From Candidatus Hadarchaeales archaeon (GTDB taxonomy: Archaea > Hadarchaeota > Hadarchaeia > Hadarchaeales > WYZ-LMO6): a stretch of 64,000 bases of DNA. The notes under the pieces were generated by a model, which made no database searches, was not told the DNA's origin, and saw only the letters and a list, made by a program, of their open reading frames with translations. Both the position numbers and the translations under genes were made by a program. Position 1 is the first letter of the stretch. Each line of letters starts with the position of its first letter. The DNA lies in assembly GCA_038736355.1 (NCBI GenBank), contig JAVYML010000001.1, positions 306,908 to 370,907 of the forward strand, written 5' to 3'. Positions 1 to 17,045 of this stretch are shown piece by piece.

Positions 1-38
1 AAACTAGAATAAACTTCTGTCTCCAAGTGGTTGTGAGG

Positions 39-1085
39 ATGAAAAGCGATTTGAAAGTATTCATTTGGCAGGGGGGATGGCTGGGAGGAGCGGAAAGAGT
101 GATGCTTGGACTTGCGGAGACATTTAAGAGTCATGCCCGAATAGAGCCTGTTTTAGGGGTTTTTGAAAAAAACGAAAACATCGATTTTAAACAGGTTTGC
201 GTGAACAGAATTTTTCCGGAAAAGGCGGTTGGATATAACACGATTTGGGCCTCGTTTTATCTGAATAGAAAAGGTATTCTTGATGATTTTGATATCGTTA
301 TAGCCCATGGGGGCGGAATGTGGAAAACTAGGAAAAACTTCTACGTTTGTCATGAAGCAGGGGATCTAGATGCTTTAGCAAAAAACCTGCCCCTATTCTC
401 CAAGCTCACATTTTTTCCTCTGAAAGAGCTTTACATTTGTTTTATCAAAAAATCTGATCTAATCATATCAGCCACAAGAGAATGTGACAGATTTTTAGAA
501 AGGCATGGTGTGAGGGATTACGTAAAGGGGCGCAATTTTGTGGATACCAAATTTTTCAGACCAAATGGAAAAAAACCAGGCGGAGCTTTTAAGATTCTTT
601 TCGTCGGAAGGAATGAACCTAGAAAAAACCTTGGGGCTCTGAAAGAAGTCTGCAGAAAACTTCGTGGAGTTGAGCTCAACATAATCGGAGCGGTAGGAGA
701 AAATGAGGGGGATGTTAGATATCTAGGTTATGTGAGTGATGAGGAGCTCGCTGAATGGTACAGAAGATCTCATCTTTTTGTTCTGCCATCTTTCTGGGAG
801 GGCTTTTCTGTTTCAATTCTCGAGGCGATGGCGAGCGGGACCCCTGTCCTAGCTAGCGTATATGCCATTCCGGAAGAATTGAAGAAATTTGCTATTACTT
901 TTGATCCATACTCAAAAAACGAGCTTTCCAAAAAGATTCAATGGATAATGGAGAACTATAAAGATGTGACAAGGATTGCCAAGAAAGCGAGAAATTTCGT
1001 CGTCAAAAACTATGAGAAAGAGATGGTTTTGAGATGGGAGGTAGAAACGATTCTCGAAAGATTCAGAAGGAGGAAAAGAAGATGA
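39..1085 (+). CDS. Glycosyltransferase family 4 (GT-B)
   Basis: A retaining GT-B glycosyltransferase expected to add a sugar from a nucleotide donor to a growing surface glycan at the cytoplasmic membrane face. The N-terminal domain opens with a glycine-rich loop (GGWLGGAERV, about residues 11-20), as in GT4 enzymes. The C-terminal domain has ILFVGRNEPRKNL and the donor-site motif PSFWEGFSVSILEAMASGTPV, with the usual E-x7-E glutamates. About 348 residues, a normal length. I place the start at the ATG at 39; a GTG at 27 is in frame. Its stop overlaps the next start (ATGA), so the two are translationally coupled. AT-rich like the rest of the locus. Acceptor and donor cannot be named. Confidence 0.85.
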   Translation: MKSDLKVFIWQGGWLGGAERVMLGLAETFKSHARIEPVLGVFEKNENIDFKQVCVNRIFPEKAVGYNTIWASFYLNRKGILDDFDIVIAHGGGMWKTRKNFYVCHEAGDLDALAKNLPLFSKLTFFPLKELYICFIKKSDLIISATRECDRFLERHGVRDYVKGRNFVDTKFFRPNGKKPGGAFKILFVGRNEPRKNLGALKEVCRKLRGVELNIIGAVGENEGDVRYLGYVSDEELAEWYRRSHLFVLPSFWEGFSVSILEAMASGTPVLASVYAIPEELKKFAITFDPYSKNELSKKIQWIMENYKDVTRIAKKARNFVVKNYEKEMVLRWEVETILERFRRRKRR

Positions 1086-2302
1086 ACTACAAAGTTCTCT
1101 TCATTCCTGGAAATGTCTACCACGTTAGAATGTTTTCCAAAGTTGCGAAGAAGCTGAAAGGAGATGTACTTGCGATAAGTTTGGAAGGATACGGCGAAAA
1201 GGGTAGAGCTGGGATAGAGCGAGCACTTCAAGAAAACGGAATTCGATTTAAACGGGTTCAAGATTATCGAAAGAAGGATCCGGAGTTTATCCTACGAGAG
1301 GAGAAACCCGACGTTGTGGTTGTTTTAAACGATATCGACCCAGGTTGTCTCTATTTCGTCAGAGGAGCTAACAGACTGGGAATACCAACGCTTCTCATAG
1401 CTGAAGGGATAGTTGTGGACACTCCGCATAGAAGCTTAGGACCAAGTTATTTCATAAATATCATCAAAAATGTTTTGTTCTCTGGAAATATTGCTCATTC
1501 CATAAAACTTCTCGTTAGAAGAACTTCCAGCATATTGTCCGGAAATCCTGAACCAGGATATGATAGGTATGGTGCTGAGTGTATGAAAATTGCTGTCTGG
1601 GGCGAATATTCAAAGAAATTTTTTGAAAGTAGAGGCATACCGTCGGAAAAGATTGTAATCACGGGAAATCCACTGATGGACGATATTTTTAGATTAAAAC
1701 CGAAGGCCGATAAAATAAAAAAGCAATTGGGTTTACCAGCTGGGGCTAAACTCATTGTGTACGCTTCTTGTAATCCTATTGATATTCAGTATTGGACGGA
1801 AGAGGAGACAGCTCATCTAGTGAGACTTTTAAACAAGATAGTGCTAAACATGAAGAACTGCTTTTTGCTTATCAGACCTCATCCAACTGAACCGAACGAA
1901 AGATATCTGCGCTTTTTACAAGGAGAGGATACAAGCAAAACATTCGTGAGCAAAAAGGAGAATCTTTACGATTTGTTGGCTTCTTGTGATCTCTTGATAA
2001 CTGAGGGCTCAGTAGTGGGGAGCGAGGCCGCTGCAATGGGAAAACCCGTAATAATCGTCAATTTAACCGGTAAACCCTACCTAAACAGATATTACCCCAA
2101 ATTGTTAGCTGACGAGGGAGTAGCCATTGAGGTTCTAAAAGAATATGAACTCGACAACTTAATCAAGCGGCTTCTGAAAAGCAAAGACCTTGCGAAAAAT
2201 CGCTGGAAATTTATAAGAAAGTATTTCTATAAGTTGGATGAGATGTCTTCTCAGCGGGTGGCTAGTTTAATAGAAAAACTTGCCAGAGGGCGGGGCGGAT
2301 AG
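1082..2302 (+). CDS. GT-B glycosyltransferase, CDP-glycerol/epimerase-like
   Basis: Likely a glycosyl- or glycerophosphotransferase with the fold of UDP-GlcNAc 2-epimerases and CDP-glycerol transferases. Seen in the sequence: a hinge segment ITGNPLMDDIF, then LLIRPHPTEP, and the late motif TEGSVVGSEAAAMGKPVI that binds the nucleotide in this superfamily. The ATG at 1082 overlaps the stop of the upstream GT4 gene; an in-frame upstream ATG at 1034 lies inside that gene and is less likely. About 406 residues. Residues near 215 are encoded by DNA that recurs almost exactly at 3485-3514. The substrate is unknown. Confidence 0.75.
   Translation: MNYKVLFIPGNVYHVRMFSKVAKKLKGDVLAISLEGYGEKGRAGIERALQENGIRFKRVQDYRKKDPEFILREEKPDVVVVLNDIDPGCLYFVRGANRLGIPTLLIAEGIVVDTPHRSLGPSYFINIIKNVLFSGNIAHSIKLLVRRTSSILSGNPEPGYDRYGAECMKIAVWGEYSKKFFESRGIPSEKIVITGNPLMDDIFRLKPKADKIKKQLGLPAGAKLIVYASCNPIDIQYWTEEETAHLVRLLNKIVLNMKNCFLLIRPHPTEPNERYLRFLQGEDTSKTFVSKKENLYDLLASCDLLITEGSVVGSEAAAMGKPVIIVNLTGKPYLNRYYPKLLADEGVAIEVLKEYELDNLIKRLLKSKDLAKNRWKFIRKYFYKLDEMSSQRVASLIEKLARGRGG
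1701..1729 (+). repeat. Copy A of a 29/30-bp direct repeat
   Basis: The stretch beginning CGAAGGCCGATAAAATA and ending GCAATTG recurs at 3485-3514 with a single extra A in its A-run. Copy A is coding, inside the GT-B gene at 1082-2302; copy B lies in a non-coding remnant. A 29-base match with one indel is not expected by chance in this window and points to recombination or partial duplication inside the glycan locus. Confidence 0.8.
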
Positions 2303-2305
2303 CTT

Positions 2306-3467
2306 ATGAGATTTTTATTCCTAAATCCTGATTTTCCTTATAAGCAAAACGACCAAATAATAATCACGGGCGGATTACAAGCACACGGTTTTTTTATAGC
2401 GAGAGAACTCGTCAAAAGAGGACACGAGGTAACTGCTATAGCTTTTTTACCACAAGGCAGAACGGAGGTAATTGATGGAATTAGGGTTTGTAGAGTTGGG
2501 AACTGGACTACCGAACACAGTGTGTTTAAGAAGACATTTAATTTTGGAAAAAACTTGATGGAGCTTTTAAGAGCTGGAATGTTTATAGCCGAGGAATATA
2601 AACCAGACTTCATCTACAGTTGGTCAAGTGAAGGCTTTATTATTTCTCCCGTGATAAGTAAACTGTATAAAATCCCGTTTATTGCAAGCATCCATGGTAT
2701 CGGCGGGTTGAATGTGTTGTTTTACGGTTTCTTTTTGAACAAGGGAGCATATGCCTGCCCCACGTCTCTAGGGGAGCTAGTGCTCGCGACACTTGGTACA
2801 CTTGGTAGTAGGATGGCAGATCTGGTTGAAACGATCTCTACAGAAAGTAAAAAACTTATCATAGATTTCGTCGGAATTGATGCCAGAAAGATCTTTGTGA
2901 CTGGCAATGGTGTGAATATTGAAGATTACGAATATTCTGAAGACAAGGAAAACCTAATCGTTGTTCTGGGCAGACTTACTCGCGTTAAACGAGTTGACAG
3001 GGCAATAGAGATCTTTAGAAGGGTAAAAGAGAAAGTGAAGGATGCGAAACTGTGCATTATAGGTGATGGTCCGGAAAAGGAACTACTGATGCGTATGACA
3101 AAAAACGAATCTGATATTATTTTTACCGGCATAATACCAGAGAAAGAAAAAATTTCTCTTCTGAAGAGAGCAAAAATCTATCTTTCGTCCTCTTCTCATG
3201 AAAGTTTGAACATTCCACTTTTAGAAGCTTGGGCATGCGGAGCTTATCCAGTAGTTCCCCACATCCCTGCTTTTGTGAATATTGTTGGTCCTTATGGATT
3301 CGTTTACAAAGAAGAAAGTTAGAGCAATTACGCATATGCTAATTCAAGAAAATGAGAGAAAAAAATGTACATACGCCGCAAGGAAGTTTGTAGAAGAAAA
3401 CTATGATTTTGAAAAAATAGCAGATAAATTTATCTCAGCAGTTGCTAGTCGGGATAGTAAAAGATAG
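2306..3467 (+). pseudogene. Glycosyltransferase family 4, frameshifted
   Basis: A GT4 glycosyltransferase whose reading frame breaks near 3310-3325. The first frame (2306-3322) gives the N-terminal domain (GGLQAHGFFIARELVKRGHEV) and most of the C-terminal one (VVLGRLTRVKRVDRAIEIF, then SSSSHESLNIPLLEAWACG), and stops after VYKEES. The expected C-terminal tail continues in another frame from about 3320 to 3467 as AITHMLIQENERKKC and FVEENYDFEKIADKF, the usual final helix of GT4 enzymes. About ten residues before the tail also seem missing. Either a true pseudogene or an assembly indel. Starts four bases after the previous gene. Confidence 0.75.
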
Positions 3468-3479
3468 AGAATTTTAACT

Positions 3480-3556
3480 TTTAGCGAAGGCCGATAAAAT
3501 AAAAAAAGCAATTGCATATGTTTATTCAAAAAATAGAGAAAAAGCATAAATCGGTG
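3480..3556 (+). pseudogene. Glycosyltransferase tail remnant with repeat copy B
   Basis: Between the broken GT4 gene and the cytidylyltransferase gene, one frame reads LLAKADKIKKAIAYVYSKNREKA and stops. It resembles the C-terminal tail of a GT4 enzyme and is similar at DNA level to 3328-3375. It contains repeat copy B (3485-3514), nearly identical to 1701-1729. No start codon or ribosome-binding site goes with it, so I read it as a leftover of a duplicated or deleted glycosyltransferase gene. Confidence 0.45.
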
Positions 3557-3573
3557 CAAGTGTAATTTGAACG

Positions 3574-4338
3574 ATGAAAACTGCGGTGTTGATTCCGGTA
3601 AGAATAAAATCGACTAGGTTGCCCAGAAAACCCTTAAAAATTATAAAAGGAAAAAGAGCGATTGAACACCTTATCGAACGGGTAAAAACAGCCAAGCTTC
3701 CAGATCTAATAATTCTCTGCACCACAATTCGTTCGGAGGACTTGATTTTGGAAAAAATAGCCAAAACTTATAAAATAGAATGTTTCAGAGGAAGCGAAAA
3801 AGACATTATAAACCGGCTCTTTCATGCAGCTCTAAAATATAACGTGGACTTCATAGTTAACGTGGATGGAGACGACATTTTGTGTGATCCAGAACTTGTC
3901 GATCAAACAATACGGGTCTTCAGAAGGAGTAAGGCTGATGTTATCAGATGGGAGAACCTTCCTTTGGGGGCAGCTCCCTTTGGAATCAAAACAGAGGCGA
4001 TAAAAAAAGTTTTATCAATTAAAGCTACAAATAACACAGAAACTGGATGGGTGAGATATTTCACTGATACAGGATTGTTTAAAGTGAAGAAAATGACCCC
4101 AAGTGATGAGAGACTCAAGAGGCCGGACATAAGAATTACTCTTGATTACCCAGAAGATCTTAAATTTTTCAGAAAGATCTTTGAAAAACTCTATAAACCT
4201 GGAAAGATAATTTCTTTGAAGGATGTAATTCAACTTTTAGAAAAAGAACCACAGCTCTTGGAGATAAATAAAAATGTCAGAGAAATTTATTGGAAAAGAT
4301 ATATTCGTAATTCAAAAATAAAAATAAAAATAGAATAG
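3574..4338 (+). CDS. CMP-nonulosonate (acylneuraminate) cytidylyltransferase
   Basis: Activates a nonulosonic acid (sialic, legionaminic or similar) with CTP to give the CMP-sugar, the last soluble step before transfer. The start (MKTAVLIPVRIKSTRLPRKPL) is the nucleotide-binding motif of the NeuA/KdsB/SpsF family. An acidic metal-site motif NVDGDDILCDPELV follows at about residue 92, and ITLDYPEDL near 190 is typical of SpsF-like members. 254 residues. The NeuB and NeuC homologues downstream support a LegF/NeuA role. The exact sugar is inferred from neighbours, not from this protein. Confidence 0.82.
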   Translation: MKTAVLIPVRIKSTRLPRKPLKIIKGKRAIEHLIERVKTAKLPDLIILCTTIRSEDLILEKIAKTYKIECFRGSEKDIINRLFHAALKYNVDFIVNVDGDDILCDPELVDQTIRVFRRSKADVIRWENLPLGAAPFGIKTEAIKKVLSIKATNNTETGWVRYFTDTGLFKVKKMTPSDERLKRPDIRITLDYPEDLKFFRKIFEKLYKPGKIISLKDVIQLLEKEPQLLEINKNVREIYWKRYIRNSKIKIKIE

Positions 4339-4345
4339 AGATACC

Positions 4346-5350
4346 ATGAAATTCCTAATAGTTGGTCTGGGTTCAATGGGCAAACGGAGGATTCGTAATT
4401 TGATGCGTTTGGAAGCAGGCGAGATAATTGGTTTTGATGTTTTAGAAGATAGGCGAAAAGAAGCTAATGGAAAATATGGGATAAAAAGCTTTAGCGAGTT
4501 CGAGGAGGCAATGAGGGAAAATCCTGATGTACTTATCATCTCTACTCCTCCCGATTTACACATGAAATATGCAATAATGGCCGCTCAGGAGAATAAACAC
4601 TTCTTCACCGAGGCTAGCGTGGTAGACGACGGCATGGAGAAGCTCATTCACCTGTTGAAAGACAAAAAGATAGTTGCAGCACCATCTTGCACTATGAGGT
4701 TTCACCCTGCAGTCAGAAAAATAAAGGAACTGGTGGATCGGGGAGCTGTTGGAAAACCTCTTTCGTTTACATATCATTCCGGTCAGTATCTTCCCGACTG
4801 GCACCCATGGGAAGATTACAGGAAGTTTTACGTTGCGAGGAGGGAAACCGGAGCAGCGAGAGAGATAGTTTCGTTTGAGCTGGTCTGGCTCGTTTGGGTT
4901 TTTGGAGATGTAAGAGCAATATCGTGTTTCAAGGGAAAGATCTCGAGACTGGATGTTGATATAGATGACGTTTATCAGCTTCTGCTCAAATTCAAGAGTG
5001 GTCTTCTTGGACACTTACTCGTGGATGTCGTGGCCAGGTACCCAACTCGTTACTTTAGACTAGTTGGAGAAGAAGGAACGATCGAGTGGAGCAGAGATAC
5101 TGGTATAGTGAGGCTGTATAGGGCTGATGAAAAGCGCTGGGAGAATTTTTTGGCTGGAGAAGGAATCCCAGAGAAGGGCTATATCACTGGGGAGGATATG
5201 TACGTAGAAGAGATGAAGGCCTTCATAAGAGCAATAAAGGGAGAAGCAGCGTATCCATACACCTTCGAGGAGGATTGGAAGATACTAAAGCTGTTGTACG
5301 CAGCTGAGAGGAGCTCAGATGAAGGAGTTCATGTGGAGGTGAGTCCATAA
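4346..5350 (+). CDS. Gfo/Idh/MocA-family oxidoreductase
   Basis: NAD(P)-dependent sugar oxidoreductase. The Rossmann motif is near-perfect (LIVGLGSMGKRRIRNL, residues 3-18), and the segment ISTPPDLHMKYAIMAAQENKH holds the family's cofactor and substrate contacts. The usual EKP motif reads EASV here, so the lysine often found at that place is absent, and the catalytic assignment is open. The start lies 8 bases after the cytidylyltransferase, and its TAA overlaps the next ATG. This gene type often sits with NeuB and SpsF genes, suggesting it modifies a nonulosonate or its precursor; the substrate is unknown. Confidence 0.8.
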   Translation: MKFLIVGLGSMGKRRIRNLMRLEAGEIIGFDVLEDRRKEANGKYGIKSFSEFEEAMRENPDVLIISTPPDLHMKYAIMAAQENKHFFTEASVVDDGMEKLIHLLKDKKIVAAPSCTMRFHPAVRKIKELVDRGAVGKPLSFTYHSGQYLPDWHPWEDYRKFYVARRETGAAREIVSFELVWLVWVFGDVRAISCFKGKISRLDVDIDDVYQLLLKFKSGLLGHLLVDVVARYPTRYFRLVGEEGTIEWSRDTGIVRLYRADEKRWENFLAGEGIPEKGYITGEDMYVEEMKAFIRAIKGEAAYPYTFEEDWKILKLLYAAERSSDEGVHVEVSP

Positions 5351-6663
5351 TGAAGATCAGGAGAGGCCCTCGACTCTGGGAGAAAGCGAAGACCCTCATA
5401 CCGGGAGGTTCTCAGCTTTTTTCCAAGCGTGCAGAGCTTTTTTTGCCGTCTTTGTGGCCTGCATACTACAAAAAGGCTAAGGGAGATATGATATGGGACT
5501 TGGACGGTAACAAATTCATCGACATGTCTTACATGGGGGTCGGTACTTGTGTTCTGGGATATGCTGATCCCGACGTGAATAGGTCCGTGGTTCGAGCAAT
5601 ATCGTTGGGCTCTATGTCCACGCTGAATTGTTTCGAGGAATTGGAGTTAGCCGAACTCCTTTTGAAACTCAACCCATGGGCAGGGATGGTCAGATACGCT
5701 AGAACCGGCGGTGAGGCCATGGCGATTGCCGTGAGGATCGCGCGTGCCTTTACCGGAAAAGACAGAGTGGCCTTTTGCGGCTATCACGGATGGTCGGATT
5801 GGTATCTCTCCGCGAACCTTGCAAAGGACACCAACCTTGATGGTCACCTTCTTCCTGGATTGCAACCCAAGGGGGTTCCAAGGGCTCTGATGGAAACTGC
5901 CCTTCCTTTTAACTATAATAGGATAGAGGAGCTTGAGGGCATCGTTTCGAAGTACAATGACATCGGCACAATAGTCATGGAGCCCGCCAGACATCAGGAG
6001 CCCAAGGATGACTTCCTAAAAAGGGTTCGAAAGATTGCAGATGAAATCGGCGCTGTGCTCATTTTCGATGAGATAACTTCAGGCTGGAGGATGAACGTTG
6101 GTGGGATTCATCGGCTCTACGGGATTGATCCGGATATAGCCGTTTATGGGAAGGCCATGAGCAACGGCTTTCCGATGGCAGCCGTTGTTGGAAAAAAGGA
6201 GGTGATGGATGCCGCCCAAGATAGTTTCATAAGCAGCACATACTGGAGTGAAAGGATCGGTCCTGTAGCAGCTTTAGCAACAATAGAGAAGATGAAGAGG
6301 AGAAACGTTCCCCGTCATCTGTGTAAGATAGGGAACTCGGTGAAAAAAGGTTGGAAAAAGATGGCTAGCGAGCACGGGCTTGAGATAAAGATCGTTGGGC
6401 TTCCACCTCTGGCCACTTTCTCCTTTGAAGGTGAGGACCCTCAGGCAATGCACACACTCTTCACACAGGAGATGCTGGAGAGGGGATTTTTAGCTTCAAA
6501 GAGCCTTTATGCTTCCTACGCCCACACCGAAGAACACGTATCCAAGTATTTGGAATGCGTTGATGAGGTCTTTGGGCTGATAAGAAGGGCAGTAGATAGA
6601 GGGGAACTGCGAAAAATGTTGAAGGGTCCGGTAGCCCAGACAGGCTTCAGGCGTCTAGCCTAG
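5350..6663 (+). CDS. Class-III PLP aminotransferase (HemL-like)
   Basis: A fold-type I, class-III aminotransferase related to glutamate-1-semialdehyde aminomutase. Visible motifs: GGSQLFSKR near the start, ARTGGEAMAIAVRIARAFTG (phosphate-binding region), the YHGW motif, FDEITSGWR with the Asp that contacts the PLP ring, and YGKAMSNGFPMAAV with the Schiff-base lysine. 437 residues, normal length. Genome position inside a nonulosonate cluster argues for a sugar-modifying role rather than heme synthesis. It is coupled by a TAATG overlap to the oxidoreductase, and the two may act together on one sugar. Confidence 0.83.
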   Translation: MKIRRGPRLWEKAKTLIPGGSQLFSKRAELFLPSLWPAYYKKAKGDMIWDLDGNKFIDMSYMGVGTCVLGYADPDVNRSVVRAISLGSMSTLNCFEELELAELLLKLNPWAGMVRYARTGGEAMAIAVRIARAFTGKDRVAFCGYHGWSDWYLSANLAKDTNLDGHLLPGLQPKGVPRALMETALPFNYNRIEELEGIVSKYNDIGTIVMEPARHQEPKDDFLKRVRKIADEIGAVLIFDEITSGWRMNVGGIHRLYGIDPDIAVYGKAMSNGFPMAAVVGKKEVMDAAQDSFISSTYWSERIGPVAALATIEKMKRRNVPRHLCKIGNSVKKGWKKMASEHGLEIKIVGLPPLATFSFEGEDPQAMHTLFTQEMLERGFLASKSLYASYAHTEEHVSKYLECVDEVFGLIRRAVDRGELRKMLKGPVAQTGFRRLA

Positions 6664-6672
6664 GAGGAGATC

Positions 6673-7722
6673 ATGAGGTGCATTAGAATCGGAGAGAGAA
6701 TGGTGGGAGAAGGGAAGCCGTGTTTTATAATAGCAGAGGCCGGAGTCAATCACAACGGGAAGCTCGGACTGGCAAAGAAGCTCATAGACGCAGCCAAAAA
6801 AGCAGGGGCGGATGCGGTGAAGTTTCAAGTCTTTTCGGCAGAGGATTTGGTCACAACAAGGGCCCCTAAGGCGATGTATCAAAAAAGAGCAACTGGGAAA
6901 GGCACTCAATACGAGATGCTTAAAGAACTTGAGTTGTCTGAAAGCGAGTTTGAAACTCTGGCAAAATATGCAAAAAAAAAGAGAATAGTCTTCTTGGCTT
7001 CAGCCTTCAACGAAGAGAACGTGGATCTCGTCGAGCGTTTGGGCGTCCCCGCATTTAAGGTCCCTTCCGGGGAAATCACAAATTTTCCGCTTTTGAGGCA
7101 CATAGCGAGGAAGGGCAAACCAATTATCTTGTCTACAGGCATGTCTACGCTGGAGGAGGTGCAGGAGGCCTTGGAGGTGATGAAGAAAGAGGGAGCAGGG
7201 GATATAGTCCTGCTCCATTGCGTGAGCAACTATCCCGCAAAAATCGAGGAGGTAAACCTGAGAGCGATAAAGACGTTGAGGTCGGCGTTTGGGGTACCCG
7301 TGGGGCTCTCGGACCATACGGTTGGCATAACTATCCCTATAGCTGCCGTAGCGATTGGGGCATCAATTGTAGAAAAGCATTTAACTTTGAGCAAAAAACT
7401 CCCAGGACCAGATCACAAGGCCTCTTTGGAGCCGGATGAGTTCAAGAGAATGGTGGTTGGGATAAGAGAGGTTGAAAGGGCGCTTGGGGATGGAGTGAAA
7501 AGGCCGACCAAAAGCGAGGAAATAATGAAGAAAATGGTGCGGAAAAGCATAGTTGCCAAAACATCCATCCCAAAAGGTACTATAATCTCACAAGGAATGC
7601 TGGAAATAAAAAGACCTGGCACAGGTTTAGAGCCGAAATATATAGATAAGATTGTTGGAAAGAAAGCACGGAAAGACATAGAAGCAGATGAAATTATCAC
7701 ATCAGAAAAAATTGTGTGGTAG
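6673..7722 (+). CDS. neuB: N-acetylneuraminate/legionaminate synthase (NeuB/LegI)
   Basis: Condenses phosphoenolpyruvate with a 2-acetamido or 2,4-diacetamido hexose to form a nine-carbon nonulosonic acid. The TIM barrel begins IIAEAGVNHNGKLGLAKKLI (NeuB signature), with AGADAVKFQ and SDHTVGI further on. The C-terminal SAF (antifreeze-like) domain occupies about residues 285-349 (KGTIISQGMLEIKRPGTG). 349 residues, full length. A clear AGGAGG precedes the ATG by 6 bases. Followed directly by a NeuC-like gene that would make its sugar substrate. Confidence 0.93.
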   Translation: MRCIRIGERMVGEGKPCFIIAEAGVNHNGKLGLAKKLIDAAKKAGADAVKFQVFSAEDLVTTRAPKAMYQKRATGKGTQYEMLKELELSESEFETLAKYAKKKRIVFLASAFNEENVDLVERLGVPAFKVPSGEITNFPLLRHIARKGKPIILSTGMSTLEEVQEALEVMKKEGAGDIVLLHCVSNYPAKIEEVNLRAIKTLRSAFGVPVGLSDHTVGITIPIAAVAIGASIVEKHLTLSKKLPGPDHKASLEPDEFKRMVVGIREVERALGDGVKRPTKSEEIMKKMVRKSIVAKTSIPKGTIISQGMLEIKRPGTGLEPKYIDKIVGKKARKDIEADEIITSEKIVW

Positions 7723-7723
7723 C

Positions 7724-8881
7724 ATGAGAAAGATAGCGGTCCTGACCGGTACGCGGGCTGAGTACGGAATTCTCAGACCCCTTCTCCGAGCGATAGAGAA
7801 TCATCCAAATCTTGACCTTGCGCTTATCGTGACTGGAATGCACCTCTCAGAAGAATTTGGCTATACGATTAAAGAAATAGAAAAGGACGGATTCAAGATT
7901 GACGCTAAGATAAAGATTTTACACAAAGAAGATACTGGATCAGCAATGGCAAAATCAATCGGTGAATGTATAAAAAAAATCACTGAGGTCTTGGACCGGA
8001 TAAAACCTGATTTTTTAGTACTCTTAGGCGATAGAGCCGAAATGCTAGCTGGAGCGGTAGCAGCTTCTTACGCGGGGATTCCAATAGCACATTTACACGG
8101 AGGGGAGGTTTCCGGAAGTATAGATGATTCAGTTAGACATGCGATTACCAAATTGGCACACCTTCATTTTCCAGCTACTCGAAAGAGTGCAAAAAGAATA
8201 ATAAAGATGGGTGAAGAGCCATCCAGAGTTTTTGTGGTGGGAGCCCTAGCTCTTGACACAATATTAAATGAAAAATTGCCAAGTGGAGCTGAGCTTTCTA
8301 AAAAATATGGCCTTGATTTGTCAAAACCTATTTTGTTGGTTGTGCAGCATCCCGTAGTTACGGAAGCCGATGAAGCAGCATATCAAATAAAAGAAACGCT
8401 CGATGCACTAGTTGAACTAAATCGTCAAACTAATAATCAAACAATTTTAATTTATCCCAACGCGGACGCGGGCGGGCGAAGAATGATTAAGATGATAGAA
8501 AAATACAGAAAATATCCCTTTCTAAAGTGCTTCAAGAGCATTCCATTCAATGATTATTTGGGTCTAATGAGCATAGCAAGTGTGATGGTTGGAAACTCGA
8601 GCAGTGGCATAATTGAAGCGCCTTCTTTTCATTTACCAGTAGTGAATATTGGAACAAGGCAGGCAGGACGGGAACGATCGGTGAACGTAATAGATGTCAG
8701 ATACAACAAAAAGGAGATCCTCAGGGCCATAAAAAAAGCTCTATACGATAAAAAGTTCCTAACGAAAGTAAAAAAATGTAAAAATCCATATGGAGACGGA
8801 AAAGCAGCTCAGAGAATCGTAAAAGTTCTTGCGAAGATTAAAATCACACCATCTTTATTACAGAAGAGAATCGTTTACTGA
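7724..8881 (+). CDS. neuC: UDP-sugar 2-epimerase (hydrolysing), NeuC/LegG
   Basis: Hydrolyses and epimerises a UDP-N-acetylhexosamine derivative to release the free sugar used by NeuB. The N-terminus reads KIAVLTGTRAEYGILRPLL, the hallmark of NeuC. Further motifs are LLGDRAEMLAGAVAA, AHLHGGEVSGSIDDSVRHA and the C-terminal VGNSSSGIIEAPSF. An in-frame upstream start would run into neuB; the ATG at 7724, just after the neuB stop, is preferred (385 residues). With a 4,6-dehydratase and a DegT aminotransferase in the same locus, LegG activity on UDP-2,4-diacetamido-trideoxyhexose is the best guess. Confidence 0.9.
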   Translation: MRKIAVLTGTRAEYGILRPLLRAIENHPNLDLALIVTGMHLSEEFGYTIKEIEKDGFKIDAKIKILHKEDTGSAMAKSIGECIKKITEVLDRIKPDFLVLLGDRAEMLAGAVAASYAGIPIAHLHGGEVSGSIDDSVRHAITKLAHLHFPATRKSAKRIIKMGEEPSRVFVVGALALDTILNEKLPSGAELSKKYGLDLSKPILLVVQHPVVTEADEAAYQIKETLDALVELNRQTNNQTILIYPNADAGGRRMIKMIEKYRKYPFLKCFKSIPFNDYLGLMSIASVMVGNSSSGIIEAPSFHLPVVNIGTRQAGRERSVNVIDVRYNKKEILRAIKKALYDKKFLTKVKKCKNPYGDGKAAQRIVKVLAKIKITPSLLQKRIVY

Positions 8882-8889
8882 GGGTAAAT

Positions 8890-9288
8890 ATGGCGAAAAG
8901 ATTCAAAAACTGGAAACCTCCTGAGTTCGACGAGCGCGGCCTAACAAAATGGAACTGGATGTGTCAGTATCACGAAAATCTGAAGCTCGGAAAGAATACC
9001 GACATAGGTGCCTTCACATACATCAACGCAAAGTATGGGGTTGAAATACAGGAAAACGTCCAAATAGGATCCCATTGCTCCATTTATTCCGAATCTACGA
9101 TCGATAGAAAGAAAGGCAAGGTAACGATAAAGAAGAACGCTAAGATAGGATCCCATACCGTGATCATGCCCGGTGTAACCATAGGCGAAAATGCGATTGT
9201 TGCGGCGTGTTCTTTTGTGAACAGGGATATCCCAGACGGCGCTGTGGTGGGAGGAATACCCGCAAAGCCGATAAAAAGATCTTCATGA
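8890..9288 (+). CDS. Hexapeptide-repeat acetyltransferase (LegH-like)
   Basis: A left-handed beta-helix acyltransferase of 132 residues. Hexapeptide repeats run from about residue 34 (LGKNTDIGAFTYIN) to 125, and the end IPDGAVVGGIPAKPIK is typical of sugar O- or N-acetyltransferases. A histidine in KIGSHTVIMPGVTIG is the likely catalytic base. The start is 9 bases after neuC. In a legionaminate pathway an enzyme of this class adds the 4-N-acetyl group, so LegH is the most economical reading; O-acetylation of a finished glycan is an alternative. Confidence 0.78.
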   Translation: MAKRFKNWKPPEFDERGLTKWNWMCQYHENLKLGKNTDIGAFTYINAKYGVEIQENVQIGSHCSIYSESTIDRKKGKVTIKKNAKIGSHTVIMPGVTIGENAIVAACSFVNRDIPDGAVVGGIPAKPIKRSS

Positions 9289-9433
9289 CGAATTTTATCT
9301 AGCAAGTCATCCAGTCTCTTAGTCATCAAGTAGAAAAGAATTCTCACCGTTAGAGTTTACATTCTTGAAAGGAAAAAACCTCTTTTATCTCATGCAAAGC
9401 TTCAGATTATAAGTGGGCGAGATATTATATAAT

Positions 9434-10582
9434 ATGATTACAATGTCTCACAATTGGAAAATTCCGCTGTTCAGGATATACTGGGACGAGGACGACATTC
9501 AGACAGTAAACGGTGTTATAAGAAGGGGCATGTACTGGGCGGCCGGGCCGGAGATAGAGAATTTTGAAAATGAGATTTCGAAATACATCGGCACAAGGTA
9601 CTGCGTGGCTTTTAATTCAGGCACATCGGCGTTGCATGCCGCCCTGTTGGCGCATGGTGTGGGAAAGGGAGATGAGGTGATAGTCCCGTCGTTCACCTTC
9701 ATAGCGACGGCTAATGCTCCCCTTTTTGTCGGTGCAAAGCCAGTTTTCGCCGATATCGATGAGAAAACCCTCGGGCTTGACCCAGCCGATGTGGAAAGAA
9801 AAATCACAAGAAAAACTAGGGCAATCATTCCGATCCACTACGGCGGATGTCCATGCCGGATTAAGGAGCTGAGGGAGATAGCCGATGATCACGGCCTCAT
9901 CTTGATAGAGGACGCGGCCGAGGCATTCGGCGCTAGGGTGAACAAACAGAAGGTCGGAACCTTCGGTGATTCCGCCTTTTTCAGCTTCTGCCAGAATAAG
10001 GTGATAAGCACGGGTGAGGGCGGAGCCGTGGTGACCGACTCAAAAAAAGTATACGAGAGGCTGAAACTCGTGAGATCACACGGCAGGCTTGAGCGCGAGG
10101 ATTACTTTTCCACACCAGAATCCCCCGAGTACGTGAACCTCGGGTACAACTTCAGGATGTCAAGCATCACCGCTGCGCTCGGCATCTCCCAGCTCCGAAA
10201 GGTCGAGAGGTTAATTGATATGAGGAGGAGAGCCGCAAACGCATACGACAGACATCTATCGAGGATAAAGGAGGTGATTTTACCCACCCCTCCCAGCGGA
10301 TTCTACCATGTGTACCAGCTGTACACGATCAGGGTGAGGGGAGGGAGAAATCTCAGAGATGGTTTAATCGAACACTTGAGCCGAAAGGGCATAATGAGCA
10401 AGGTCTTCTTTTACCCCGTCCACTTCACAAAATTTTACAAGCAGAAATTCGCCGTAAGGCTTCCTGTGACGGAGAGTATTTCCAAAGAGGTTCTCTCACT
10501 TCCGATGTACCCGGGTATGACCAACGAGGAGATAAGCTATATAGCCGGCGAGTGTCAAGCCTTTTTCAAGGAATCAACATGA
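9434..10582 (+). CDS. DegT/DnrJ/EryC1 sugar aminotransferase (LegC-like)
   Basis: PLP-dependent transaminase that aminates a 4-keto nucleotide sugar. Conserved parts: FNSGTSALHAALLAHGVG, VIVPSFTFIATANAPLFVGA, IIPIHYGGCPC, LIEDAAEAFGA and SFCQNKVISTGEGGAVVTD with the PLP lysine. About 382 residues, full length. The start is uncertain: ATG at 9434, ATG at 9443 and GTG at 9413 are in frame and none has a good ribosome-binding site. A gap of about 145 bp precedes it, so it may have its own promoter. Its stop overlaps the dehydratase start (ATGA), the pairing expected for 4-keto sugar formation and amination. Confidence 0.88.
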   Translation: MITMSHNWKIPLFRIYWDEDDIQTVNGVIRRGMYWAAGPEIENFENEISKYIGTRYCVAFNSGTSALHAALLAHGVGKGDEVIVPSFTFIATANAPLFVGAKPVFADIDEKTLGLDPADVERKITRKTRAIIPIHYGGCPCRIKELREIADDHGLILIEDAAEAFGARVNKQKVGTFGDSAFFSFCQNKVISTGEGGAVVTDSKKVYERLKLVRSHGRLEREDYFSTPESPEYVNLGYNFRMSSITAALGISQLRKVERLIDMRRRAANAYDRHLSRIKEVILPTPPSGFYHVYQLYTIRVRGGRNLRDGLIEHLSRKGIMSKVFFYPVHFTKFYKQKFAVRLPVTESISKEVLSLPMYPGMTNEEISYIAGECQAFFKEST

Positions 10583-11613
10583 GCGACGATTACTTCGAGG
10601 GCAAGAGGGTGCTCATAACTGGGGGGGCTGGATCGATAGGGTCCGAAATCGCGAAGGCCCTTCTGAAGAAGAAGGCAAAAGTGGTCCGGATACTTGACAT
10701 AGATGAGGAAGGCCTGTTTAAATTGTCGCACGAGCTTTTACCCGATGAGAGAGTTAGGTTTCTAGTCGGAGATGTTAGGGAAAAGGAGAGGGTAAAGCGC
10801 GCGATGGAGGACATTGATATAGTTTTCCACGCTGCAGCTCTAAAGCATGTTCCCTCATGCGAGTACAACCCCTTTGAGGCAGTGAAGACGAATGTTTTTG
10901 GAACCCAAAATGCCTTGGAGGCGGCCATAGATGAGGAAGTTGAGAAGTTCATCACCATCAGCACCGATAAGGCCGTTAACCCGATAAACGTGATGGGGGC
11001 AACCAAACTTCTGGCGGAGAGACTAACGATTTCAGCAAATTACTATAAGGGTCCTAGAAAAACGAAATTTTCCTGCGTAAGGTTCGGAAATGTCTTAGGC
11101 TCCAGTGGATCAGTAATAGAGGTCTTCATCGAGCAGCTAAAGAAAGGAAAACCTCTCACGATCACTGATCCAAGGATGACTAGATTCGTTATGACAATGC
11201 GCCACGCTGTGGAATGTATCTTAAAGGCGACACAAATGGCACAGGGGGGAGAAATTTTCATTTTTAAAATGCCAACTGTAGAGCTAGGAGAACTGGCGGC
11301 TGTGATCGCAGAGGAATTATCTCAAAAGCTGGGACTGGAAAAAATAGAAATGAAAATAATCGGAATAAGACCTGGAGAAAAGTTTCATGAGGAACTTATG
11401 ACTGAAGAAGAATCAGTATGGGCCGAGGAAACTCCTGAAATGTTCATTATAAAACCACTCGTGGAACTTTCTGATGGTATCGTAAGAGAATACAGTTTCT
11501 TGAACGAAGAGTATTTTTCCTCGAGAAAAAGACGTCTTGTTTCAAAAGATGCTACTCCACGTCTGACAAAAGAGGAAATAAAGAAACTTCTCCGTGAGTG
11601 TATAATTTTGTAA
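10579..11613 (+). CDS. UDP-GlcNAc 4,6-dehydratase (LegB/CapD-like)
   Basis: SDR-family enzyme making the UDP-4-keto-6-deoxy sugar that feeds the aminotransferase. The NAD motif is ITGGAGSIGSEIA (residues 12-24). The active-site region reads ISTDKAVNPINVMGATKLLAE: a methionine stands where inverting PseB enzymes have tyrosine, as in the retaining PglF type. About 344 residues: soluble, lacking the membrane domain of PglF. The ATG at 10579 overlaps the aminotransferase stop. Last intact gene of the AT-rich locus. Retention of stereochemistry is inferred from the motif and points to a D-series (legionaminic) product. Confidence 0.85.
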   Translation: MSDDYFEGKRVLITGGAGSIGSEIAKALLKKKAKVVRILDIDEEGLFKLSHELLPDERVRFLVGDVREKERVKRAMEDIDIVFHAAALKHVPSCEYNPFEAVKTNVFGTQNALEAAIDEEVEKFITISTDKAVNPINVMGATKLLAERLTISANYYKGPRKTKFSCVRFGNVLGSSGSVIEVFIEQLKKGKPLTITDPRMTRFVMTMRHAVECILKATQMAQGGEIFIFKMPTVELGELAAVIAEELSQKLGLEKIEMKIIGIRPGEKFHEELMTEEESVWAEETPEMFIIKPLVELSDGIVREYSFLNEEYFSSRKRRLVSKDATPRLTKEEIKKLLRECIIL

Positions 11614-11663
11614 TTGGTTTGTATCTTCTAATAACCATTCCTCGCTCCCAAGAGAACTTTTCC

Positions 11664-12205
11664 TCATACCACTGACGGTATCAATCTCCTCATGTCATTT
11701 AGACCAAAACTGACAAAAATTTTTCCATCTTCGGATTTACAACTTTTTCTTCAACCTCCCAGAAAGCCCTTCTGAGCGGTGCGAACTTTGAACCCAGTAG
11801 ATATCGAACACCCCTCCTTTTCGGATATCTCAGCTTCTCAGCGTAGATGCTCCCATTCAAAACGATGCTTCTTGGTGGATAGTCCAATCTTCTGAAATCG
11901 TCAACAAATAGACACTTTTTTAACTCACTTGCCCACCGATAATGGTTTAGCGACGCCAAGTATGAGTCTATCACAACGAGATCGGCGGAAGAAAGAAAGC
12001 TTTTGAACGTCTCAAAATCATCGATCCAATTTTCCAAAACTACGTCTCTATTTAGAAACTTGACGATTTTTTCATCGCCTTTTACAACGAAGGTGGTCTC
12101 CTCACCAACCTCCTCAAAAGCATCGGAAAGAGCCCTGCATCTGGTTATGTGACCAAAACCTGCACTTTCTCCACCTTCTGTGAAAAACACTATATTGGAT
12201 GACAT
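11664..12205 (-). pseudogene. SpsG/PseG-like UDP-sugar hydrolase, broken
   Basis: N-terminal half of a PseG/SpsG-type nucleotide-sugar hydrolase: VFFTEGGESAGFGHITRCRALSDA (residues 5-28, here shown in two parts of the GGxxxGxGHxxR motif), LVVIDSYLA and LLGSKFAPLRRAFWE. The frame hits a stop at 11699, but one base over it continues as KIFVSFGLND, matching the start of the family's second domain (usual form LVSFGGSD), and stops again at 11664. So there is a frameshift inside an A/T run and the C-terminal half is gone. It faces the nonulosonate genes. Confidence 0.75.
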
Positions 12206-12265
12206 TCCTATCCACTCGTCTTTAGGAATTTCAAAACAGCCTTGATTCTCTCTCCACATTTCCCA

Positions 12266-12600
12266 TCAATCGGCCTCGCTTTCCTCGATAATCTTCCTTC
12301 TTCCTTTCCTGTTTAGCTCTGGATTCTCCAGATGCACATTTATGAACTCGACAAGCTCTCGGATTCTTCGCGATTTTAACACCACCAGAGTTCGCAACTA
12401 CTTTGTAGTACGTGGTATAGAAGTATCCCCTCGTTGACTCTATGAACGGCCTTTCCCCATATCCTTCAAAGGCTATATTGAATGTTGGCTTGTTCAATAT
12501 AACAGAATCCAGGGACACGGACGAAGCAATATTGACGGCGACGTCGCACAAATAGAGAAGTTCGGCATAATGAATCATATCTCCTTCATCAGGTACCCAG
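12266..12600 (-). pseudogene. Glycosyltransferase C-terminal remnant
   Basis: AT-rich remnant coding for the nucleotide-binding end of a GT-B transferase: LCDVAVNIASSVSLDSVILNKPTFNIAF resembles the family's conserved stretch (aspartate, two serines and a later proline). After VKIAKNP the frame is lost near 12365; in the adjacent frame the expected tail LVEFINVHLENPELNRKG follows and ends at a TGA at 12266-12268. Upstream it is fused in frame to an unrelated FkbM-type segment, so its own N-terminal domain has been deleted. (Longest quoted runs are split by my numbering; key residues are D, SS, S and P.). Confidence 0.6.
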
Positions 12601-12920
12601 CAGTACCCTTCCCCCTTGCTCAAATGCTCGCCCCTTCCCGTGATCAGCGAATGCTGTAGGCTGCTGGGGCCCAAAAAGAGCCTCATCCTTCTTTCCCTCT
12701 TCCCAAGGGCCTCCTCCACCATTCTCACGTTCCTCAGTTTTGAAACTTTACATTTCAGGAAAAACAAATCGGTGGGAGGGGATTCCACGACGACCACCTT
12801 CCATCCCTCTCCTACTTTCAGAGCCACCGGGACGGTGAATCTCTTCACCCAAGCCCCCACATCGAGAACCAACTCTTCCCTTCCTACGTCCAAATCCCTA
12901 TCGCAGTACTCTGAGTACAT
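12600..12920 (-). pseudogene. FkbM-type methyltransferase N-terminal remnant
   Basis: GC-rich segment encoding the SAM-binding half of an FkbM methyltransferase: LVLDVGAWVKRFTVPVAL (motif I), VVVVESPP (motif II, with the acidic residue), then NVRMVEEALGKRE and SSLQHSL. The usual G in motif I's G-x-G is degraded. It runs in frame into the AT-rich glycosyltransferase tail near 12600. The 225 bp upstream (12921-13145) contain no supportable gene; they may hold the decayed 5' part in other frames. Confidence 0.55.
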
Positions 12921-13145
12921 TTCGTTGAGGTACCTAGACTCACCCCCTTTTCCAAGAGAACCAGTCCCTGAAAATCCTTCCTCTGAAAAAAAAGCAACGG
13001 GAGAAGATATGGGAAAAGTAAAGAAACCTTGTCTGCGGGGAGATAGCCAAGAGTAGAGCGGAGATCAGGCGGAAAGGCCAAGGAGGGAGTTCGGTCTCCA
13101 CTCTCTCCTTCATCCTGCCCCACCAGCTCTTGCCCGGAAGACCTT

Positions 13146-14660
13146 TCAACCTCTTTCACCACTGAAAAACAGCAGGCGGAACAATATCTTCTTTTCTCCC
13201 TCGGTGAAGACTCCCGCTCCGAGGAGCCAGAAGAGGTAGAGGGAGAGGAGGGGGGGAAAAATCACCATAGCTTCAAGCCAAGGGGAGAGAGAGAGGAGTG
13301 ACTTGAAGAGGGAGATGAGAAGAAAAACCAGGCTTCCTCCCGCCGCCACCTTTAAGAGGGGAGGGAGAGTAGCCCTCCCCACCTCCTTCCAGGCGTACCT
13401 GCGGAGGAGGAGGATCCCCAGGAAGGAGGAAAGAAGGGTGGTCAGGGCAGCCCCAGAGGCCCCCAAGGGAGGGATGAGGAGGAGATTCCCCAAGAAGTTG
13501 AGGACCGCCATCCAAGCCACGGTCTTGGTGATGAGAAGGGGCTTCCCTACCCCAGCCACCACCGTTCCCACCACCGAGAAAAGAGCCCCAAGCACCGTGT
13601 GAAAGGAAAGGATCCTGAGGGCCGTACAGCTTCCCAAGTACTCTCCTCCGAACACCAGCCTCAACGCTACCTCAGGGAAGGAGAGGAAGAGAAGGGAGAA
13701 GGGAAGGATTACCGCTAGAGAGGACTTGAACAGGAAACCCGTGACTTCCCTCACCAGCTTCCTCTCCCCCTTCGCCCACATCTCCGAAACCAGGGGAAAG
13801 AGGGCTGCGGTGAGGGCTTCCACGAAGTACCCCAGCAGCCTCGCCAGGGGCTGGGCGGCCTGGTAAAGACCCACCTCCCCTGTCCCTCGGAAGAAGGTGA
13901 GCATGAGGGTGTCGGTGTAGGCCAGCACGAGGGATCCCAGACCACCCACGAAAAAGGGGAGAGCGAAGGAGAGGAGCTTTGCGAGGGTCCCTTCCTTCCT
14001 CTCCAAGGGACCCGCCACCTCTCCGTACTTCCTTCCCAAGTACCACGCCCCTCCCACCGTCAAGAGACCCGCGGAGAGGAGGTAGGAGAAGGCCACTCCG
14101 CTGACCCCCCGGGAGGGGACCAAGCACAAGGACCCCACCAAGATGACGAGGATCCAGAAGAGGTCCAGCAGGGAGTAAGCCAGCATGTCCTGTAGACCTT
14201 GGAAAGTGGAACGAAGGAGCTGATAGAAGGTGGAGGCCAGGAACCAGAAAAGGAGCAGCCTGAGGGGTAAGAGGGCCTCGGAAGTTCTGAAGAAGGAAGA
14301 AGAAAGCCAGCCGGAGAGGAGGAAGAGGGGAATAAAGAGGAAGAGGGATGAAAGGCTCTGAAGCAGAAACACCACAAAGAGGGAGGACCTCAGGGAGGAG
14401 AGGTCTCCCTTCACCCTGAACTCTGGAATGAACTTCACCAGAGCCGAGTTGAGCCCCAGATCCCGGAAGAGGAGGAAAAAGGAAACGAAGAAGAAAACGG
14501 AATAGAAGAGGCCGTAGCCTTCCACCCCTAGGCTCCTGGCTAGAAACATGCGAAGGAGGAAGGCCACGAAGGTGGAGGCCACCATGCAGAGGAAGACCAA
14601 GGTACTTCCCCTGAGCAGCCTCTTGGCATAATCCTCGAGCTTTCCCTCCTCGGAGGACAT
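13146..14660 (-). CDS. Wzx-type polysaccharide flippase (MVF/MATE fold)
   Basis: Integral membrane protein of 504 residues with about 14 hydrophobic helices, of the polysaccharide biosynthesis/O-antigen flippase family. It would flip lipid-linked oligosaccharide across the membrane. The N-terminus (AKRLLRGSTLVFLCMVASTF) followed by SLGVEGYGLFYSVFFFVSFF is the family's typical first helix pair, and LGLNSALVKFIPEF fits the next loop. GC-rich native composition, unlike the adjacent glycan genes. Transcribed divergently from the GalE-like gene. Likely partner of AglB for N-glycan export, though that is inference. Confidence 0.88.
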   Translation of the reverse strand: MSSEEGKLEDYAKRLLRGSTLVFLCMVASTFVAFLLRMFLARSLGVEGYGLFYSVFFFVSFFLLFRDLGLNSALVKFIPEFRVKGDLSSLRSSLFVVFLLQSLSSLFLFIPLFLLSGWLSSSFFRTSEALLPLRLLLFWFLASTFYQLLRSTFQGLQDMLAYSLLDLFWILVILVGSLCLVPSRGVSGVAFSYLLSAGLLTVGGAWYLGRKYGEVAGPLERKEGTLAKLLSFALPFFVGGLGSLVLAYTDTLMLTFFRGTGEVGLYQAAQPLARLLGYFVEALTAALFPLVSEMWAKGERKLVREVTGFLFKSSLAVILPFSLLFLSFPEVALRLVFGGEYLGSCTALRILSFHTVLGALFSVVGTVVAGVGKPLLITKTVAWMAVLNFLGNLLLIPPLGASGAALTTLLSSFLGILLLRRYAWKEVGRATLPPLLKVAAGGSLVFLLISLFKSLLSLSPWLEAMVIFPPLLSLYLFWLLGAGVFTEGEKKILFRLLFFSGERG

Positions 14661-14738
14661 GCCCCTCGAACCCCAAGGAAACCCGTTTTAATAAAGAAAA
14701 AGGGTCTGGTTAAAAGGCGGGAGGGAAAAGGGAAGGGG

Positions 14739-15674
14739 ATGAAGGTCCTGGTGACGGGAGGGGCGGGTTTCATAGGCTCCCACTTGGTGGACAAGCTGCT
14801 GAAAGAGGGACATGAAGTAACGGTCTACGACAACCTTTCCTGGGGAAAGGAGGAGTTCCTGAAGGAACATTACGGGGAGAAGAACTTCAGGTTCCTCAAA
14901 GGTGACCTGCTCGATTCCTCCTCCCTCAGGAAAGCCGTGAAGGGACAGGAGTTCATTCACCACCTAGCCGCCAACCCCGACATAAGAAAGGGGGCCGAAG
15001 AAACGGAGCTGGACCTCAAACAGAACGTACTGACCACCTTCAACCTTCTCGAAGCCATGAGGGCCTGCGGGGTCAAGCAGATAGCCTTTTCCTCTTCCTC
15101 CACCGTCTATGGGGAGGCGAGGACCCTTCCCACCCCCGAGGACTACGGCCCCCTGCTTCCCATCTCCCTCTACGGGGCGAGCAAGCTGGCGGCCGAAGGG
15201 CTCATCTCCGCCTACTGCCACACCTTTGGCTTCAGGGCCTGGATCTTCAGGTTCGCCAACATCGTGGGACCCAGGCAGACCCACGGGGTGATCGTGGACT
15301 TCATCGAGAAGCTCAGGAAGAACCCCGAGGAGCTGGAAATCCTCGGGGACGGAAACCAGAACAAGTCCTATCTCTGGGTGGAGGACTGTGTGGAGGCCAT
15401 GCTCCTGGCCGTGGAGCGCTCGACAGAAAATCCGGCCATCTTCAACCTGGGAAACACCGACAGAACCACCGTGAGAAGGGTGGCGGAAATCGTTTGTGAG
15501 GAAATGGGCCTTCAGCCCAGGTTCAGGTTCACGGGAGGGAGAAGGGGATGGGTGGGAGACGTGCCGGAAATGCTCCTGGACATCACCAAAATATGCTCCC
15601 TGGGGTGGAGGCCGAGGTACTCCTCGGAGGAGGCCGTGAAAAGGACGGTCAGGGTCCTCCTCGGAAGGTCCTAG
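14739..15674 (+). CDS. NAD-dependent nucleotide-sugar epimerase (GalE-like)
   Basis: Extended short-chain dehydrogenase acting on a UDP-sugar, probably a UDP-glucose/UDP-GlcNAc 4-epimerase or a relative. Seen: MKVLVTGGAGFIGSHLVDKL (GxxGxxG, residues 7-13), D31 of the adenosine-ribose site, HLAANPDI, SSSSTVYGEA (catalytic serine) and YGASK (catalytic Tyr and Lys), then RFANIVGPRQTHGVI. 311 residues, the usual length for archaeal GalE-like proteins. ATG with GGAAGGGG just before. Supplies precursors for the glycan genes nearby; the substrate cannot be fixed. Confidence 0.88.
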   Translation: MKVLVTGGAGFIGSHLVDKLLKEGHEVTVYDNLSWGKEEFLKEHYGEKNFRFLKGDLLDSSSLRKAVKGQEFIHHLAANPDIRKGAEETELDLKQNVLTTFNLLEAMRACGVKQIAFSSSSTVYGEARTLPTPEDYGPLLPISLYGASKLAAEGLISAYCHTFGFRAWIFRFANIVGPRQTHGVIVDFIEKLRKNPEELEILGDGNQNKSYLWVEDCVEAMLLAVERSTENPAIFNLGNTDRTTVRRVAEIVCEEMGLQPRFRFTGGRRGWVGDVPEMLLDITKICSLGWRPRYSSEEAVKRTVRVLLGRS

Positions 15675-15731: not shown

Positions 15732-17045
15732 CTATCTTTCCAGCAGCCACCTCCAGAGGGGGACGAACCTCACCCTCTTCCCATCGACTTCCTCCTCCCC
15801 ACCGTAATCCTCGGTCAGGACCAGACCCTCCTTCAGCCCGAACTCCTCCATGGCCTTCACCAGCCCCTTCACCTCCCTCCTCTTCGTCTCCTCTTCCGTC
15901 GGGTCCCAGCAAACCTGGATCAGCTGCTCCACCTTCAACCCTTTCCTTATGACGAAATCGACCTCTCCCCGTTCACGGTTCCTCCAGCAGAAGATTTCGT
16001 GGACGGGGGGTTCAAACCTCCGCCTCAGCTCCACGTACACCATGTTCTCGGCCAATCTACCCCAGTTTTCACCAGTCCTAGCGAAGCAGTTGACGATCCC
16101 CGTGTCCACGCAGTAAATTTTTCTGGGGTATTGCATCCTGTCCTTAATTCTATAGGAAAAAATCTCCACGGGGAAAAGGAGGAAGACGGACTCAGCGTAC
16201 CTCAAGAAATTCGCCAGGGTTTTTTTGCTACACCTGATACCCGTGCTTTTGAAGTATCCCTCTACCTTGCTCAGACTGAGGTAGGAGGAGAAGTTGTTTA
16301 TGGCATAACGCAGGAAGTCGTTGAGCAAGGACAAGTTCTTGACCCCATATCGCTCCACGATGTCCTTGTAGAAGATGGTTTCGAAGTAGGAGGAAAGCAG
16401 TCTGCGCTTGGTCTCTTCATCCCGCTCGAGAACGACTTCAGGAAACCCGCCGAATTCCAAGTATTCCCTCTGGAGCCTCAGCATCTCCCCCCTTTCCTCG
16501 CTGTACTGAATCTCCTTCAGGCTTTGGGGGAAACGCCCCTTCGCTCTCAGGAACTCGGCGAAGGAGAAGGGGTAGAGGATGAAACTCAGGCATCTTCCCC
16601 TCAAGGAAGTCGCGATTTCCCTCCCCAGCAGTTTTGAGGAAGAGCCCGTTATGAAAATCCTGAACCTCCGCTCGTCATGGACCCTCCTGACCCATTTATC
16701 CCAATCCCTGACGTTCTGGATTTCGTCCAGAAGCAGGAAAAGGGGTTTCTCATCGGGTTCAAAAATTTCCCTATGGGCCACCAAAAGCTCCTCCATCTGA
16801 CCGGCATCCAGATTCCTCAGCCTTTCGTGCTCGAAGTTCAAGTAAACGACGTTCCCCCTTTTCAACCCTTTCAGCAACTGTTTTGCTTTGCTGAGGAGCA
16901 AGTAAGTCTTCCCGCACCTCCTAACCCCCACGACGGAGATGATTTGGTTCGAAGAAAGGGGCAGGTCAAGCTCTCGCTCAACTGCATCCGGGAGCTCGAG
17001 ACGCTTCCACCAAACCAACGCGGCCTTGAAATCCTCCCTTCGCAT
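15732..17045 (-). CDS. AAA ATPase with DUF4143
   Basis: Archaeal P-loop ATPase of the AAA_14/DUF4143 type. Walker A is VVGVRRCGKTYLL (near residue 45); Walker B is LFLLLDEIQN; a sensor-like ITGSSSKLLG and the R-finger-like SLRGRCLSFILYPFSFAEF follow. The C-terminal DUF4143 part contains a restriction-nuclease-like ENMVYVELRRR and a later CWRNRERGEVDFVI (E-x-D-x-V). I start at the ATG at 17045, preceded by AGGAGAAAG; a TTG at 17063 is possible. 437 residues. Function is unknown for the family; such genes occur in many copies in archaeal genomes and behave like mobile accessory genes. Its promoter has a strong inverted repeat. Confidence 0.85.
   Translation of the reverse strand: MRREDFKAALVWWKRLELPDAVERELDLPLSSNQIISVVGVRRCGKTYLLLSKAKQLLKGLKRGNVVYLNFEHERLRNLDAGQMEELLVAHREIFEPDEKPLFLLLDEIQNVRDWDKWVRRVHDERRFRIFITGSSSKLLGREIATSLRGRCLSFILYPFSFAEFLRAKGRFPQSLKEIQYSEERGEMLRLQREYLEFGGFPEVVLERDEETKRRLLSSYFETIFYKDIVERYGVKNLSLLNDFLRYAINNFSSYLSLSKVEGYFKSTGIRCSKKTLANFLRYAESVFLLFPVEIFSYRIKDRMQYPRKIYCVDTGIVNCFARTGENWGRLAENMVYVELRRRFEPPVHEIFCWRNRERGEVDFVIRKGLKVEQLIQVCWDPTEEETKRREVKGLVKAMEEFGLKEGLVLTEDYGGEEEVDGKRVRFVPLWRWLLER

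Follow-up and report, generated by a model that had tools for sequence, protein, structure and literature searches.

A chimeric open reading frame at the probable right-hand joint of an imported surface-glycan island in a Hadarchaeales archaeon

Background

Gene clusters for surface structures and glycosylation are described as being swapped at the same chromosomal position, forming replacement flexible genomic islands (PMC4033161; PMC4119200). In these descriptions the strains typically share more than 96% ANI, homologous recombination is invoked, and complete clusters are included (PMC4033161; PMC4119200). The account of Lopez-Perez et al. 2014 includes one archaeon, Haloquadratum walsbyi, with an S-layer island (PMC4033161). 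Nonulosonic-acid genes are reported as known in archaea, where they are uncommon (PMC6137143). Judging by titles and abstract openings, none of the papers found on archaeal glycan transfer and capsule-locus remnants describes the locus considered here.

The locus lies in a 64-kb stretch of contig C1 (below, the window) of a Candidatus Hadarchaeales genome, G000. This is a 1.27-Mb draft in four contigs, 96% complete and of archaeal origin according to its rRNA, and the joint analysed below is known from this assembly alone. Like the replacement flexible genomic islands, the G000 island carries surface-structure and glycosylation genes. Family models identify genes for exposed surface structures, namely neuB, neuC, pseB-like and pseC-like genes, glycosyltransferase (GT)-like genes and a flippase (Table 1).

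Table 1. Features of the island and its right flank (window positions; resident or imported origin is predicted by comparison with related genomes)
Feature	Position	Strand	Remarks
Left part of island, GT-like genes	1..3514	+	98.3% to G005; reaches G000:C1:303889 (window -3018)
Middle of island	3515..11667	+	Best donor match 69%
Genes of the middle: cytidylyltransferase, oxidoreductase-like ORF, class-III aminotransferase, neuB, neuC, acetyltransferase, pseC-like, pseB-like	3515..11667	+	
Second joint, end of pseG homology	11667..11668	.	Stop of the convergent pseB-like gene 54 bp away
Imported pseG 5' remnant (residues 1-181 of 330)	11668..12205	-	Frameshift near 11717, then cut off
Imported GT 3' remnant (residues 339-474)	12211..12599	-	Three reading frames, two frameshifts
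Chimeric open frame	12231..12920	-	229 aa (277 aa stop to stop); joint remnant, probably without gene function
Right joint of imported island	12595..12599	-	TGGGT on the minus strand; from DNA comparison with G001 FkbM and G005 GT
Resident fkbM methyltransferase 5' remnant	12595..13137	-	tblastn HSPs in two frames; frameshift near 13054-13076
Resident flippase (Polysacc_synt)	13146..14660	-	82% amino-acid identity to G001; intact
Resident sugar epimerase/dehydratase-like gene	14739..15674	+	Syntenic with G001 contig C13

Results

The chimeric open reading frame

The first-pass annotation had described an uninterrupted frame that begins as an FkbM methyltransferase and ends as a GT C-terminus. 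The frame is present at the position claimed, on the minus strand, and is 229 amino acids long. Its N-terminal part matches the NCBIfam family fkbM_fam (TIGR01444) with E 5.6e-5 and 23.6 bits, below the curated cut-off of 37.7 bits. The alignment pairs ORF residues 18-82 with profile positions 2-67 of 143, that is, the first half of the family, and the ORF contains no complete methyltransferase domain above the cut-off. An intact GT of G005, a genome from another family of the same order, shares 79% identity with residues 104-189. A Pfam profile search of 12234-12605 gave no match at E up to 1. The GT similarity is spread over three frames, and thus the last ~42 residues of the ORF (12357-12234) are out-of-frame read-through past a frameshift. 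The two-part description is therefore correct for the FkbM start and for the GT segment, both of which were matched, and not for this tail.

Of 1000 first-order Markov sequences modelled on this stretch, three contained an ORF of at least 229 amino acids, the real one being longer than those of the other 997. Given two real coding halves, a length unusual by chance is expected. Matches to any part of the ORF were found in 20 of 297 genomes searched, and in none of them besides G000 are the FkbM and GT halves combined in one match; such two-part homologues had been named beforehand as evidence against a joint. Among the matches listed (G000 aside), each is confined to the FkbM part (residues 1-112) or to residues 94 onward. 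The two halves have different relatives, as the proposed check anticipated.

Position of the joint

The switch between the halves had been placed near 12600. DNA comparison narrows it to the five positions given in Table 1. Agreement with FkbM extends through 12595. Agreement with the GT starts from 12595, or from 12599 with one mismatch at 12596, and the edge of the blastn match with G005 is at 12599. The minus strand of the window reads TGCTGGGTACCTGATGAA across the joint, two FkbM genes of the congener G001 have TGCTGGGTGGAA and GTGTGGGTGGAA at this position, and the GT of G005 has ATGTGGCTACCTGATGAA. TGG is common to both parents in the same codon phase, and thus the stumps are fused in frame. 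Since the resident fkbM is known only via its G001 proxies (45-53% protein identity), the joint is placed within a few bases.

The right joint gives no sign of homologous exchange in shared flanking sequence: the two genes are unrelated and share three to five bases. Chance alone can account for this number of common bases at a joint. No shared 11-base words, direct or inverted, were observed in the 400-bp stretches around the four joints (G000 position 303889 and window positions 3514, 11668 and 12594). No tRNA genes were found at the island edges.

A window-wide step in base composition had been claimed at the same place. A maximum-likelihood fit to the entire window places the GC change-point at 12595, where GC content rises from 43.3% to 57.4%. 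The gain in log-likelihood is ~402, whereas 1000 permutations of 1-kb blocks reached at most 155, which bears the claim out. The 10-log-unit interval of the change-point is wide, 12340-13371, and narrower windows place it at 13034 or 12589. The contrast at the joint itself is modest, 52.6% in 12600-13145 versus 42.9% in 11668-12599. In 20-kb stretches around the G005 locus the GC content is 44-48%, compared with 57.4% right of the joint; this favours a G005-like lineage as the donor.

The resident side

The right side of the joint is assigned to the resident chromosome by its similarity to G001. The region 13045-15672 of the window is 82% identical to contig C13 of that genome, where the flippase is directly followed by an intact 306-aa FkbM gene (PF05050, 5e-17) and then by a carbamoyltransferase. 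The proposed comparison with sister genomes thus provides an intact FkbM adjoining the flippase. In G000 the FkbM similarity reaches upstream of the ATG of the ORF, to 13137, and is interrupted by one TGA. The stretch DVGAWVG of a G001 FkbM corresponds to DVGAWVK in the remnant, a conserved glycine being replaced by lysine; presumably, this glycine is part of the cofactor-binding loop.

The left flank of G001, MetRS-PHP-ATPase, is on contig C20 and is 81% identical to that of G000, with heptose genes coming next instead of the island (MetRS and PHP are putative names, read from the ORFs). The flank pieces of G001 are on separate, unlinked contigs, and thus the full sister arrangement is putative. 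To the left of the window, a segment of ~305 bp (16054-16358 of locus L019) matches G001 at 91% and G002, another congener, at 84%, versus 81% in the neighbouring DNA. It has only sub-threshold Rfam matches and may be a small gene or RNA.

Contig C13 of G001 also contains an orphan FkbM 3' half behind unrelated DNA (positions 316-585, minus strand). Its similarity to FkbM starts at GTGGAA, at the codon adjoining the joint codon of G000. There are several similar FkbM 3'-half matches in G001, two of them at contig ends, as if this were a mobile or gene-converting cassette. The probability that two breakpoints fall within 5 bp is ~1% (assuming uniformity over ~900 bp), a post hoc figure for two cases. 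That the TGG-GTGGAA codons of fkbM are a recurrent break site for swapping the ends of glycan islands in these archaea is a long shot.

The imported side

An imported origin of the left side of the joint is firmly supported by comparison with G005. The fragment 11668-12599 is 90.8% identical to G005 DNA, in which an intact 474-aa GT is followed by an intact 330-aa PseG. The core DNA tells a different story: between S8e and SMC, G005 matches G000 in only two short pieces (72% and 66%), versus 77-84% for the congeners G001 and G002. The PF04464-like GT is incomplete in G000, residues 339-474 alone remaining. The PseG remnant scores 58.4 bits versus the curated cut-off of 153.55 and is not full-length. 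The frameshifts in GT and pseG are absent from G005, and the DNA alignment with G005 reveals small deletions in both remnants.

The dN/dS values versus G005 are 0.20 for the GT fragment (78 codons) and 0.18 for the PseG fragment (163 codons). Such low values indicate that most of the divergence arose in working genes, before decay, which is therefore recent compared with the split from G005. The ORF has no match in G010, a congener of G005, and thus G005 itself is possibly a recipient from a third lineage.

An FkbM query found in G000 this remnant alone. No matches were observed in G000 for the FkbM 3' half (matched in 5 of 61 genomes), GT residues 1-336 or PseG residues 182-330, and no GT or PseG relatives in G001, G002 or G003. 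The missing halves being located elsewhere in the genome was rejected by these searches within the 96%-complete assembly.

The rest of the island

The segment from -3018 to 3514 of the window (G000:C1:303889-310421) is 95.7% identical to the G005 locus, with orientation and order kept. The identity climbs from 80% to 95% in a ramp at the left edge of the island, reaches 100% at 1013-1512 and falls to 92% at 3504. This rise and fall may reflect recombination tracts that overlap, exchanged between genomes of different families. G005 contains the GT-like gene of window positions 1034-2302 once more, as a partial copy (G005:C1:189087-189416, pieces of 98% and 78% identity) adjoining the end of the shared segment. 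Comparison of a 104-kb stretch of G000 with an 80-kb stretch of G005 produced two short matches besides the island. One is over tRNA-Gly (82.5%, 80 bp). The other, 333 bp at window positions 63657-63986, has 85.3% identity, well above the core background.

The best DNA matches of the middle of the island over several hundred bases are 69% (G024 and G010) and 67% (G005), and no donor above 69% was found for it, short matches of less than 50 bases aside. The gene set of G005 is pseB-like, pseC, pseH, pseG and pseI. The two GT-like genes of the left end have dS values of 0.06 and 0.007 versus G005. For the GT and PseG fragments the values are much higher, 0.38 and 0.20, a difference that speaks for repeated exchange. 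Additional joints are located near 3514 and 11668, making the island a mosaic. We infer that one of the exchanges altered the type of pathway, leaving pseG and its GT as remnants.

Discussion

Most likely, the ORF represents the right-hand joint of an imported glycan-biosynthesis island, the donor being a lower-GC, G005-like archaeon of another family. Breakage or strand exchange would have occurred within the resident fkbM, which was joined at the shared TGG (Trp) codon to the interior of the donor GT gene. As a result, fkbM would have lost its 3' half and the GT gene its 5' two-thirds, and the shared codon would set both coding halves in one frame, creating an open frame across the joint. 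Afterwards, the stumps may have decayed via small deletions. The middle (3515-11667) may have been replaced separately, either afterwards or in the lineage of the donor. This would have cut pseG and placed neuB/neuC-type genes at the site of the pseudaminic-acid set of the donor relative. The first-pass annotation had proposed a recombination joint truncating one gene on each side. This interpretation is supported, with the amendment that the remnants are frameshifted and that the island is a mosaic of more than one exchange rather than one clean swap.

One alternative is that the import into or beside the locus came first, and that the joint arose later, when an internal deletion took away the 3' half of fkbM together with the 5' part of GT. 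A deletion between neighbouring genes yields the same fusion with few shared bases, and other small deletions are indeed present in the GT and pseG remnants. However, the undeleted arrangement was not found, as there is no relative of GT or PseG in G001, G002 or G003. We consider such an order of events less likely but quite possible; the joint would then be a scar of deletion at the island edge, not the import crossover itself. An error of assembly or binning, stitching a G005-like contig onto G000, is very improbable. The draft state of the genome would agree with it, as would the left segment, which in places matches G005 at 100% over 250 bp, but the joint fragment has 90.8%, not ~100%, identity and frameshifts missing in G005, and within a 460-kb contig the island is flanked by resident genes on either side (81% identity to G001 on the MetRS side, 82% on the flippase side).

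It is hardly credible that the chimeric frame works as a new gene, favoured by selection since the fusion, even if an open frame of 229-277 amino acids spans the joint and exceeds 997 of 1000 Markov sequences. It combines a partial FkbM domain, in which the conserved glycine is lost, with the last third of a GT, there is a frameshift upstream, the GT frame is abandoned at ~12357, and no fusion homologue was found in 297 genomes; a functional fusion gene was rejected on these grounds. Returning to the imported island, the ORF looks like a non-working gene, a scar that would join an imported archaeal block of surface-sugar genes to the resident chromosome. This impression comes from the frameshifts in both parts, the lost motif glycine, the shortened PseG and the fusion without homologues in the genomes searched.

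The open frame should not be annotated as a fused methyltransferase-glycosyltransferase. Its N-terminal part aligns with the first half of the FkbM family (PF05050, TIGR01444), whereas the second half is missing and the motif glycine has become lysine; the G001 homologues are intact. Compared with the G005 GT, whose best Pfam match is PF04464, the ORF lacks the first 336 residues, and the homologous DNA has two frameshifts.

The locus adds a case to the replacement glycan islands, one in which the donor belongs to another family and the joint truncates genes. The joint of a surface-glycan island shared by archaea of two families is placed here within a few bases, and the age of the stumps left at such joints can be bounded. 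Such islands can end spliced within unrelated genes, without extended shared flanks. In contrast to the replacement flexible genomic islands described previously, the relatives of the G000 island are in different families, the joint is inside two unrelated genes, and the stumps of these genes have been left behind.
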